From a virus, in the IMG/VR virus record IMGVR_UViG_3300028864_000014, positions 1-64,000 of that record: 64,000 nucleotides of DNA; one strand, 5' to 3'. Both the position numbers and the translations under genes were made by a program. The notes beneath the pieces are model-generated. The model saw nothing but the letters and a program-made list of their open reading frames with translations, made no database searches and had not been told where the DNA came from. Positions 2,106 through 3,663 of this stretch are shown here, in pieces (position 1 is the stretch's first letter; the number at the start of each line of letters is the position of its first letter).

Positions 2106-2118
2106 AACTTTATAATTG

Positions 2119-2192
2119 TGATCCTGAAGGGATTCAAACCCTTGACCCTCGCCTTAGAAGGGCGATGCTCTATTCAACTGAGCTACAGAACC
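2119..2192 (-). tRNA. tRNA-Arg (TCT)
   Basis: Complete cloverleaf on the minus strand: acceptor GGTTCTG/CAGGATC, D-arm GCTC/GAGC, anticodon loop CTTCTAA, T-arm AAGGG-TTTGAAT-CCCTT, discriminator A. The 3' CCA is not encoded. It decodes AGA, the main Arg codon of this AT-rich genome. Confidence 0.93.
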
Positions 2193-2292
2193 GTTGTTTT
2201 TTATTACTCTGTAAAAGTAGTGTTTTATTTTGATACTACCAAACATTTTACACTAAATATAGATATAATTTTTATAAAAGTTTATTTAATTG

Positions 2293-2376
2293 AGCACAAT
2301 ATCAGACTCGAACTGATGAAATCTTTTCAGATGCTGGGTTACAAAGCCAGAGCAATAGCCACTATGCGAATTGTGC
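2293..2376 (-). tRNA. tRNA with long variable arm, anticodon TGT (Thr by reading)
   Basis: 84 nt, acceptor GCACAAT/ATTGTGC, discriminator T, T-arm ATCAG-TTCGAGT-CTGAT. The variable region is 16 nt with an ATCT-GAAA-AGAT hairpin, which is class II architecture normally limited to Leu, Ser and Tyr. Stem pairing puts TGT in the anticodon, with one C-C mismatch at the loop-closing pair; shifting to GTA (Tyr) breaks the stem. The first two acceptor pairs and discriminator T match the other Thr tRNAs here. Confidence 0.7.
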
Positions 2377-2384
2377 ATTTATTG

Positions 2385-2457
2385 AGCTTTAGAAAGGACT
2401 TGAACCCTCAACATTTACCTTACAAGGGTAACGTTCTACCAATTGAACTACTAAAGC
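2385..2457 (-). tRNA. tRNA-Thr (TGT)
   Basis: Normal 73-nt cloverleaf: acceptor GCTTTAG/CTAAAGC, D-stem GTTC/GAAC, anticodon stem TTACC/GGTAA with loop CTTGTAA, T-arm GAGGG-TTCAAGT-CCTTT, discriminator T. Confidence 0.93.
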
Positions 2458-2467
2458 ATTTTTATTG

Positions 2468-2542
2468 TCGGAATGACAAGATTCGAACTTGCAATAACCT
2501 GGTGTCCAATACCAGTAACCTCTCTCTATGGATCGCATTCCG
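2468..2542 (-). tRNA. tRNA-Pro (TGG)
   Basis: 75 nt, acceptor CGGAATG/CATTCCG with C1-G72 as usual for bacterial tRNA-Pro, discriminator A, anticodon stem CTGGT/ACCAG with loop ATTGGAC, T-arm GCAAG-TTCGAAT-CTTGT. Confidence 0.9.
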
Positions 2543-2554
2543 TTGTTTTTATTG

Positions 2555-2626
2555 AGCCAAGGGTGAGAGTCAAACTCACGACATCCACGTTACTAAGGTG
2601 GCGCTCTATCACTGAGCTACATCGGC
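2555..2626 (-). tRNA. tRNA, anticodon AGT (Thr by reading)
   Basis: 72-nt cloverleaf with D-arm GCTC/GAGC and T-arm GTGAG-TTTGACT-CTCAC. The anticodon loop TTAGTAA sits on CCACC/CGTGG with a C-C mismatch at the closing pair. AGT would read ACT; an unmodified or inosine A34 is uncommon in bacterial Thr tRNAs. The acceptor has one mismatch. Confidence 0.8.
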
Positions 2627-2633
2627 ATTATTG

Positions 2634-2708
2634 TAGGACTTATTGGAATCGAACCAATGACGTTTTGCTTGTTAAACAAATACTCTGAACCAACTGAGTT
2701 AAAATCCT
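2634..2708 (-). tRNA. tRNA, anticodon AAC (Val by reading)
   Basis: 75 nt, acceptor AGGATTT/AAGTCCT, D-stem ACTC/GAGT, anticodon stem TTTGT/GCAAA with loop TTAACAA, T-arm ATTGG-TTCGATT-CCAAT, discriminator A. A34 makes AAC an unusual bacterial anticodon. No alternative register pairs better. Confidence 0.78.
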
Positions 2709-2722
2709 ATATTCAAAAAAAG

Positions 2723-2793
2723 TAGCCCCAGATGGAATCGAACCATCTCCCAAACCTTGTAATAGTCATACGCTTCCGTTACGCCACAGGGCC
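2723..2793 (-). tRNA. tRNA, probable anticodon TAC (Val)
   Basis: 71 nt, T-arm GATGG-TTCGATT-CCATC, acceptor GGCCCTG/TGGGGCT using several G-T pairs, discriminator A. The best anticodon arm has loop ATTACAA on a stem weakened by G-T pairs, giving TAC. The stem is poor, so the identity is less certain than the presence of a tRNA. Confidence 0.7.
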
Positions 2794-2801
2794 AAATTTA
2801 G

Positions 2802-2887
2802 AGCAAGTAAAGGGATTCGAACCCTCGGTGTGATATTATCTTTCTAGATTGGAAATCTAGTGCAATCGACCTCTATGCGACACTTGC
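2802..2887 (-). tRNA. tRNA-Gly (TCC) with long variable arm
   Basis: 86 nt. Acceptor GCAAGTG/TACTTGC, discriminator T, perfect anticodon stem CTAGA/TCTAG with loop TTTCCAA, T-arm GAGGG-TTCGAAT-CCCTT. The variable region is 17 nt with a GAT-AAT-ATC hairpin. G1-C72, C2-G71, U73 and C35-C36 are known bacterial glycine identity elements, so glycine charging is plausible despite the class II shape. Confidence 0.8.
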
Positions 2888-2908
2888 GTTAATTTATTTT
2901 AATATTTG

Positions 2909-2993
2909 AGCGATAGATGAGATTCAAACTCACGGTGTGCTTTCGCTTACTGGATTGGCAACCCAGCGCCATCGGTCTCTAGGCGACTATCGC
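2909..2993 (-). tRNA. tRNA-Gly (GCC) with long variable arm
   Basis: 85 nt. Acceptor GCGATAG/CTATCGC, discriminator T, anticodon stem CTGGG/TCCAG with loop TTGCCAA, T-arm GTGAG-TTTGAAT-CTCAT. The 16-nt variable region holds a GC-GAAA-GC hairpin and ends CACACC as in the TCC tRNA next door, so the two are paralogues. Glycine identity elements are again present. Confidence 0.8.
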
Positions 2994-3029
2994 ATTATTT
3001 ATAATCATTTATGTAACTATCTGATTATG

Positions 3030-3106
3030 TGGAGCTTATGGGCATCGAACCCACCTGTTATTCCTCTGTGCAAGAGAGGCGACCACTCCAAGCAGTCCCA
3101 AGTCCC
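3030..3106 (-). tRNA. tRNA-Ala (TGC)
   Basis: 77 nt, anticodon stem CCTCT/AGAGG with loop CTTGCAC, T-arm GTGGG-TTCGATG-CCCAT, acceptor GGGACTT/AAGCTCC with one mismatch, discriminator A. Confidence 0.87.
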
Positions 3107-3181
3107 ATTATTAATTGTTTTTATAAAAATCTAAAAATTTTTCAATTTCGTTTTACTTTTCCGAACTATGTTTTTGTTATG

Positions 3182-3268
3182 TCGGGTAGGTGAGATTCGA
3201 ACTCACGATGACTATACGTTCCCTCATGTTCCCAAAACACGTATGCTAACCAACTACACCACTACCCG
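3182..3268 (-). tRNA. tRNA-Pro (TGG) with long variable arm
   Basis: 87 nt. Acceptor CGGGTAG/CTACCCG with C1-G72 and A73 as in Pro tRNAs, D-stem GTGT/GCAT, anticodon stem CGTGT/ACATG with loop TTTGGGA, T-arm GTGAG-TTCGAAT-CTCAC. The variable region is 18 nt. An alternative fold pairs ATACG with CGTAT around an enlarged anticodon loop, so a short insertion in the anticodon arm is possible. Confidence 0.72.
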
Positions 3269-3340: not shown

Positions 3341-3399
3341 TCAGGTGAAGAAGAGTCGAACTTCCTTGTGCCTGATCCTGACACTACCACATACACCTG
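3341..3399 (-). tRNA. Short tRNA-like element lacking a D-arm
   Basis: Only 59 nt. Acceptor CAGGTGT/TCACCTG (one mismatch) and T-arm GGAAG-TTCGACT-CTTCT are clear, and GTGTC/GGCAC encloses loop AGGATCA (GAT or ATC, no U33). Only 8 nt separate acceptor and anticodon stem. It may be a degraded tRNA or a minimal D-armless one. Confidence 0.45.
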
Positions 3400-3410
3400 A
3401 TATTTTACTG

Positions 3411-3489
3411 TGACCCAGGAGGGGGTTGAACCCTCATTTTTCATTCCATTATGCACATAGAGTTTAGAAAACTCCGCCATTACAAGGCC
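3411..3489 (-). tRNA. tRNA-Arg (TCT), no D-arm, long conserved variable region
   Basis: 79 nt. Acceptor GGCCTTG/CTGGGTC, anticodon stem GGAGT/ACTCT with loop TTTCTAA, T-arm GAGGG-TTCAACC-CCCTC, discriminator A. Only 7 nt lie between acceptor and anticodon stem, so there is no D-arm. A 23-nt variable region is identical to that of the neighbour at 3503-3581. Compensatory changes between the two support the acceptor, anticodon and T stems. Confidence 0.72.
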
Positions 3490-3502
3490 ATTATTTATTT
3501 TG

Positions 3503-3581
3503 TGATCCAGAAGAGACTCGAACTCTCATTTTTCATTCCATTATGCACATAGAATTTAGGAAATTCTGCCACTACAGGACC
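3503..3581 (-). tRNA. tRNA-Arg (CCT), no D-arm, long conserved variable region
   Basis: 79 nt. Acceptor GGTCCTG/CTGGATC, perfect anticodon stem AGAAT/ATTCT with loop TTCCTAA, T-arm GAGAG-TTCGAGT-CTCTT, discriminator A. It is a diverged tandem copy of the TCT gene beside it: stems changed in a compensatory way, the anticodon changed only at position 34, and the 23-nt variable region unchanged. The two would read AGA and AGG. Confidence 0.72.
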
Positions 3582-3601: not shown

Positions 3602-3635
3602 AAAACCCAAAGTTGAATAATCATCTTTGGGTTTT
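3602..3635 (-). terminator. Hairpin terminator
   Basis: AAAACCCAAAG (3602-3612) pairs with CTTTGGGTTTT (3625-3635). On the minus strand it is followed by a T-rich run. It directly follows the stop codon of the 36-residue gene at 3664-3774 and separates it from the tRNA array. Confidence 0.75.
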
Positions 3636-3663
3636 AACACTATTAAAATATTTTATAAAAATA

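Follow-up and report, generated by a model that had tools for sequence, protein, structure and literature searches.

Herein, we examined positions 1 to 64,000 of the IMG/VR virus record IMGVR_UViG_3300028864_000014 (the window, that is, the whole stretch of 64,000 nt; GC content 25.6%), in which two transfer RNA (tRNA)-like genes with arginine anticodons stand at the head of a canonical tRNA gene cluster of a 235-kb phage record. Both genes lie on the minus strand (Table 1). Gene 1 (3581-3503) reads GGTCCTG TAGTGGC AGAAT TTCCTAA ATTCT ATGTGCATAATGGAATGAAAAAT GAGAG TTCGAGT CTCTT CTGGATC A, and gene 2 (3489-3411) reads GGCCTTG TAATGGC GGAGT TTTCTAA ACTCT ATGTGCATAATGGAATGAAAAAT GAGGG TTCAACC CCCTC CTGGGTC A. 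Each has a 7-bp acceptor stem, a 7-nt linker, a 5-bp anticodon stem with a good loop, a 5-bp T stem with a consensus T-loop and a discriminator A. The 23-nt region that follows the anticodon stem is the same in the two copies at 23 of 23 positions; the remaining 56 nt differ at 14 positions (75% identity).

A sequence-only reading of the window had described the pair as D-armless arginine tRNAs, a form known mainly from mitochondria. Reading the sequence directly, we recovered the 7 nt between acceptor and anticodon stems, the stems with their quoted compensatory changes, the CCT and TCT anticodons and the identical variable region; the strand had to be corrected. The acceptor stems, called good, are indeed 7 bp long but carry a T6-T67 mismatch in both copies. 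That the stems are under selection in tRNA-like genes with Arg anticodons was borne out by the comparison below. In the following, these genes and their relatives are called rewired, after the arrangement of the D-stem.

Table 1. Coordinates of the gene pair and its parts in the window
Feature	Position	Strand	Details
Rewired tRNA-Arg gene 1, anticodon CCT	3503..3581	-	79 nt including discriminator A73; CCA not encoded; model R1 76.1 bits, E = 5e-20
Gene 1 linker TAGTGGC = T8 A9 G22 T23 G24 G25 C26 (D-stem 3' strand)	3568..3574	-	structural alignment
Gene 1 anticodon CCT (reads AGG)	3558..3560	-	loop TTCCTAA
Gene 1 transposed block GCATAATGGA = G10 C11 A12 T13 A14 A15 T16 G18 G19 A20	3537..3546	-	pairs A12-T23, C11-G24
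Gene 1 23-nt region, anticodon stem to T stem	3528..3550	-	same in gene 2 and in relatives L001-L004
Rewired tRNA-Arg gene 2, anticodon TCT	3411..3489	-	79 nt including A73; CCA not encoded; model R1 76.5 bits, E = 3.6e-20
Gene 2 linker TAATGGC = T8 A9 A22 T23 G24 G25 C26	3476..3482	-	structural alignment
Gene 2 anticodon TCT (reads AGA)	3466..3468	-	loop TTTCTAA
Gene 2 transposed block GCATAATGGA = positions 10-20	3445..3454	-	structural alignment
Gene 2 23-nt region	3436..3458	-	read from sequence
Canonical tRNA gene cluster adjoining the pair, including canonical tRNA-Arg(TCT) at 2118-2192	2118..3268	-	

Covariation supports a rewired D-stem

Relatives were gathered by pattern scans of IMG/VR in which parts of the motif were relaxed in turn, with a purpose-written scanner and with a covariance model (CM), R1, run on whole records; isolated phages were reached with BLAST. 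The sequence-only reading had suggested a covariance search of other phages for this architecture; its outcome was positive, and 112 distinct rewired genes were obtained in total from IMG/VR and cultured phages. The first relatives showed an invariant variable region, and it was by-catch members that broke this invariance and exposed its constraint.

In canonical numbering, the linker of 7-8 nt corresponds to T8 A9 N22 x23 x24 x25 26, with one extra base ahead of x23 in the few members whose linker has 8 nt. The variable region holds y10 y11 y12 T13 A14 A15 N16(17) G18 G19 N20. Positions 10-21 are thus transposed behind the anticodon arm: a block has moved, and nothing is missing. Bases x23 x24 x25 of the linker pair with y10 y11 y12, which stand directly ahead of T13 A14 A15 N G18 G19, and the two sides change together. 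The linker TAATAGC occurs with GTATAA (not GCATAA), TATCGGC with ACGTAA, TATCCCC with GGGTAA, TATCTGC with CAGTAA, TATACCC with GGTTAA and TATTCCC with GGATAA. Altogether there were 17 combinations of the two triplets, or 18 on re-anchoring, in which three mis-anchored rows were left out of the register count.

The CM alignment of 106 distinct members contained no unpaired case at either central position. Pair 12-23 was U-A in 87, C-G in 11, A-U in four and U-G in four, and pair 11-24 was G-C in 87, C-G in 12, A-U in four and U-A in three; a MAFFT alignment built before any model likewise gave 0 unpaired at both. Among the members with a changed stem, most of which were by-catch not required by the search patterns, both pairs were Watson-Crick in 28 of 28, compared with a shuffle mean of 7.8, and 28 was reached in 0 of 100,000 shuffles. 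The next best register reached 16/25 and is the neighbouring pair of the same stem. Over the whole molecule, all 20 pairs had changed on both sides, with a covariation score of 0.81 (0.23 when shuffled), and the general features of a tRNA were present and covarying: a 7-bp acceptor, a 5-bp anticodon stem with a 7-nt loop and T33, and a 5-bp T stem with a TTCRA loop.

The earlier statement that there is no D-arm was therefore half right. Between positions 9 and 26 the 7-nt linker forms no hairpin D-arm of the cloverleaf type, but pairs 11-24 and 12-23 are present with altered connectivity, their strands lying in the linker and in the so-called variable region and pairing across the anticodon arm. 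The likeness to mitochondrial D-armless tRNAs falls away, the D-stem 3' strand being in the linker and the 5' strand and D-loop in the variable region. That region is nearly invariant because it contains this displaced strand and loop.

Two other folds were considered and rejected. One takes the anticodon hairpin of the sequence-only reading as a D-arm and TCTAT-GTGCATA-ATGGA as the anticodon arm (anticodon GCA); it is broken in L013, L015, L016, L021 and L023. The other, a local hairpin CAT-AAYGGA-ATG within the variable region, is lost in members with other stems.

Elbow contacts and the predicted shape

In the aligned set, T8-A14 and G19-C56 were found in 111 of 111 members, A15-T48 in 110 of 111 with one G15-G48, and G18-T55 in 109 of 111 with two concerted A18-G55 changes; three A-T rows in the elbow table are a parsing artefact of TAATAGG. 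G15-G48 is a variant of the Levitt pair seen in E. coli tRNA-Cys. The rare concerted changes at positions 15-48 and 18-55 agree with the usual elbow contacts, which is a hint rather than proof that these contacts form. Two rewired tRNAs of one phage record, L032:944-1017 (-) and L447, have AG for GG in the D-loop and TGC for TTC in the T-loop, and canonical tRNAs at some of the rewired-gene loci also show odd D/T-loop combinations.

In the core of tRNA-Phe, residue 9 touches 23, residue 45 touches 10, and the 15-48 pair lies next to 21. Residues joined by the three new chain connections would therefore already be neighbours, and for this reason we infer that the L-shape is most likely kept despite the permuted strand connectivity.

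The whole would be built as follows. Positions 10-21, comprising the D-stem 5' strand and the D-loop, would have left their place between 9 and 22 for one that lies after the anticodon stem and before 48. The linker would then run from the acceptor through the D-stem 3' strand directly into the anticodon stem, and the latter would be followed by 3-5 nt, then by the D-stem 5' strand, which finds its partner in the linker, and after it by the D-loop (A14 A15 N G18 G19 A20) and the T-stem. Such a D-stem would enclose the anticodon arm, and the core contacts 8-14, 15-48, 18-55 and 19-56 would still be possible, giving an L-shaped tRNA whose arms are visited in a different order.

Arginine identity and probable decoding

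The anticodons of the 112 members were Arg in 105 (TCT 63, CCT 24, ACG 8, TCG 8, GCG 2), Ile in six and Val in one, an Arg share inflated by the search since some patterns fixed C35; in a pattern scan without the C35 requirement, the added members examined were Arg as well. The base following G18 G19 was A20 in all 105 Arg members and T20 in all seven Ile/Val members. A20 is a known identity base of arginyl-tRNA synthetase (ArgRS), the E. coli identity set being A20, C35, G or T at 36, and A/G73. The rewired genes carried this set, with A20 in 105/105, an Arg anticodon in 105/112 and A/G73 in 82/90 Arg members. In Streptomyces phage Mildred21, one Arg and one Ile member share the D-stem and carry A20 and T20, respectively. 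Of all the evidence, this tracking of the anticodon by A20/T20 speaks most strongly for a displaced loop that acts as a D-loop and for charging of the RNAs.

CCA was encoded directly after position 73 in 35 of 95 members, the window pair not among them. AGA accounts for 236 of the 294 Arg codons in the large open reading frames (ORFs) of the window. No ArgRS gene was found in the phage's own 235-kb record, so host ArgRS would be needed; it would charge the rewired tRNA through A20, C35, T36 or G36, and the purine at 73. The genes are most likely functional tRNA-Arg (a few Ile/Val) with predicted expression and charging, of which the window pair most likely decodes AGA and AGG and some relatives would read CGN. 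The phage may benefit from a supply of AGA/AGG-reading tRNA and possibly also by evading those host nucleases that recognise tRNA-Arg in its normal form. Defences that cleave tRNAs are known to be overcome by phage tRNAs (PMC10264068, PMC11555353), and the rewired D-arm could hide a tRNA from the cleaving enzymes.

Taken together, sequence comparison shows the stems, the rewired D-stem (by covariation), the conservation of all elbow residues and the arginine identity set. We assign a probability of roughly 0.83 to the reading that the two genes are arginine tRNAs of a distinct architecture, with block 10-21 transposed, an L-shape, charging by host ArgRS and decoding of AGA/AGG.

Distribution of the rewired genes

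The architecture recurs across many large phages. Carriers among isolated phages are Streptomyces phages Mildred21 (four genes) and Gilson, Rhodococcus phages NiceHouse (two) and Trina, Rhizobium phage RHph_I1_18 (two), Agrobacterium phage Atu_ph04 and Alishewanella phage Slicko01, together with the 735-kb LR756501 genome. Phage groups that are independent of each other and infect Actinomycetota, Alpha- and Gammaproteobacteria are represented, as are uncultured phages, and the same architecture is present in complete genomes of isolated phages. A class II search with TATNNNC...GAAANNNTAANTGG gave many chance matches and no additional genuine member. A pattern scan followed by the scanner found 0 members in 119 bacterial contigs among the matches listed. 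R1 over 795 bacterial genomes, with 12 candidates scored per genome, gave two matches at 46.4 bits, both canonical tRNA-Ser, which is weak evidence of absence.

Alternative explanations

Several observations weigh against a rewired tRNA. The D-stem is only 2-3 pairs long, and at 10-25 the main class has G-G, the other classes mostly a standard pair (18/28). Nearest-neighbour folding gave this stem a mean pair probability of 0.17 in the consensus class and 0.06 in the others, and RNAalifold omits it; single-sequence folding was uninformative or misleading. The 15-48 and 18-55 changes come from two genes of one phage. Many members came from patterns fixing part of the motif, the scanner demanded T8 R9 and TTCRA, and members share descent, so that counts are not independent events. 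A linker of just 7 nt, left unpaired together with the variable region by the folding programs, is also what would be expected of truly D-armless tRNAs like mitochondrial tRNA-Ser(AGY), with an unstructured 23-nt replacement. This is unlikely, considering that linker and variable region covary, with Watson-Crick pairs in 28/28 changed members, and that the variable region retains A14 A15 G18 G19 A20 of the D-loop as conserved residues. Decaying pseudogenes or a chance assembly error, suggested by the T6-T67 mismatch and by the lack of any Rfam hit above the cut-off for the window pair, deserve practically no credence: given a correct alignment, the two-sided changes at all 20 pairs and the score of 0.81 against 0.23 would already refute them, and complete genomes of isolated phages contain the same architecture.

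A tRNA-like RNA outside translation, whose role would be regulatory or that of a decoy for anticodon nucleases of the host, would suit both the known role of phage tRNAs in countering tRNA-targeting defences (PMC10264068, PMC11555353) and the canonical tRNA-Arg(TCT) that adjoins the pair. Yet the full ArgRS identity set tracks the anticodon, including A20 versus T20 in the Ile/Val members, CCA is encoded in 35/95, and the anticodons span AGA, AGG and CGN as decoding needs, so we consider this improbable. It is also conceivable that, as happens with permuted tRNA genes, cutting and re-ligation turn a precursor into a normal cloverleaf, since the intact block 10-21 would fit between 9 and 22. 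Two excisions and one insertion would be needed, however, and no intron-like or bulge-helix-bulge motif was noticed, though no search was aimed at them. Bacteria are not known to have such machinery, and we regard this route as very improbable.

Detection by tRNA finders

The Rfam tRNA model RF00005 gave the TCT gene of the window 23.9 bits (cut-off 29) and did not list the CCT gene. ARAGORN reported the CCT gene alone, with wrong boundaries, and recovered 0 rewired genes at the isolated-phage loci and in six further members. With R1, no rewired gene scored below 44.7 bits and no cloverleaf tRNA in the same phage records above 38; in the window, the two rewired genes scored 76 bits and the best canonical tRNA 27. 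In isolated phages, rewired genes are annotated as tRNA-Ser or 'tRNA-OTHER', lie inside a predicted ORF, or have no annotation. NiceHouse gp178, a 'hypothetical protein' at MT521992.1 100906-101046, is probably no protein gene and has a rewired tRNA gene within it, at 100951-101025. The annotated start of a Rhizobium phage deoxyribonucleotidase gene (MN988519.1 87099-87623) overlaps a rewired tRNA gene at 87047-87125. Phage tRNA inventories would thus be incomplete, because common finders skip or misname the rewired genes.

Other elements around the pair

A hairpin resembling an intrinsic terminator, AAAACCCAAAGATGATTATTCAACTTTGGGTTTTTT, lies just upstream of gene 1 (window ~3604-3642, minus strand) and is kept in L001-L004. 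Immediately downstream of the pair, at 3341-3400 (-), is a 60-nt tRNA-like element with an acceptor, a 5-bp hairpin and a T-arm that lacks a D-arm, a long variable region and T33. It may represent a minimal tRNA or a decayed one, and L001/L004 have a relative of it, its hairpin partly compensated, just behind the rewired tRNA. The cluster also has tRNAs of 85-88 nt with Thr, Gly and Pro anticodons (2292-2376, 2801-2887, 2908-2993 and 3181-3268, all minus strand). The one with the Thr anticodon has a class II variable stem in the ARAGORN drawing, the others variable regions of 16-18 nt by eye. Class II arms are normally confined to Leu, Ser and Tyr, and these genes may combine bodies of the Ser or Leu type with other anticodons; tRNAs of similar length occur in L013, L015 and L020. 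An extra tRNA at 2468-2542 (-), scoring 33.7 bits with the anticodon loop ATTGGAC, was missed by ARAGORN, and five more tRNA genes (74-90 nt) form a second cluster at 137519-137970 (+) of the same phage record (G000).

Relation to known tRNAs and significance

With canonical bacterial and phage tRNA-Arg the rewired genes share the acceptor, anticodon and T arms, T8, A14, R15-Y48, G18-Psi55, G19-C56, A20, C35 and A/G73; they differ in having block 10-21 3' of the anticodon arm and hence no D hairpin. D-armless mitochondrial tRNAs, such as mammalian tRNA-Ser AGY and nematode tRNA-Ser (PMC7609411), have a similarly short connector between acceptor and anticodon stems, but they lose the D-arm, whereas the rewired genes keep both strands and the loop, reconnected, with the D-loop/T-loop contact residues conserved. 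Circularly permuted tRNA genes (PMC3978253) also have an altered segment order; in those, permutation affects the gene and leaves the mature tRNA normal, whereas the rewired genes have normal ends, a moved internal block and no sign of processing. Allo-tRNAs and tRNA-Sec (8/4, 9/3), likewise bacterial tRNAs of non-standard secondary structure, alter helix lengths and keep the arm order, unlike the 7/5 acceptor/T branch with rewired D-arm found here. A tRNA of non-canonical fold was made usable in E. coli translation, but in a laboratory-evolved system (PMC11551756).

That 2024 paper states that all known bacterial tRNAs are cloverleaves (PMC11551756), and the words 'phage' and 'permut' are absent from the text of a 2020 review of non-canonical tRNAs (PMC7609411). 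The rewired architecture is apparently undescribed so far: no description was found in the literature searched, which covered a minority of subscription journals, and one may exist elsewhere. A wider proposal is that these genes form a separate topological class of tRNA in nature, with a permuted L-core, occurring widely among large tailed phages from several bacterial phyla, mainly Arg-charged, fully functional on the ribosome, and kept because nucleases or modification enzymes of the host, which recognise a normal D-arm, would pass it by; we hold it tentatively, at somewhat less than even odds.

The order of acceptor, D-arm, anticodon arm and T-arm is treated as universal except in degenerate mitochondrial tRNAs. 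A natural family reaching the same core contacts by another chain order would show that synthetase, elongation factor and ribosome all read the fold and not the cloverleaf topology. Such a family would further open a way into the question of why phages carry tRNAs and supply tRNA engineering with a natural chassis.
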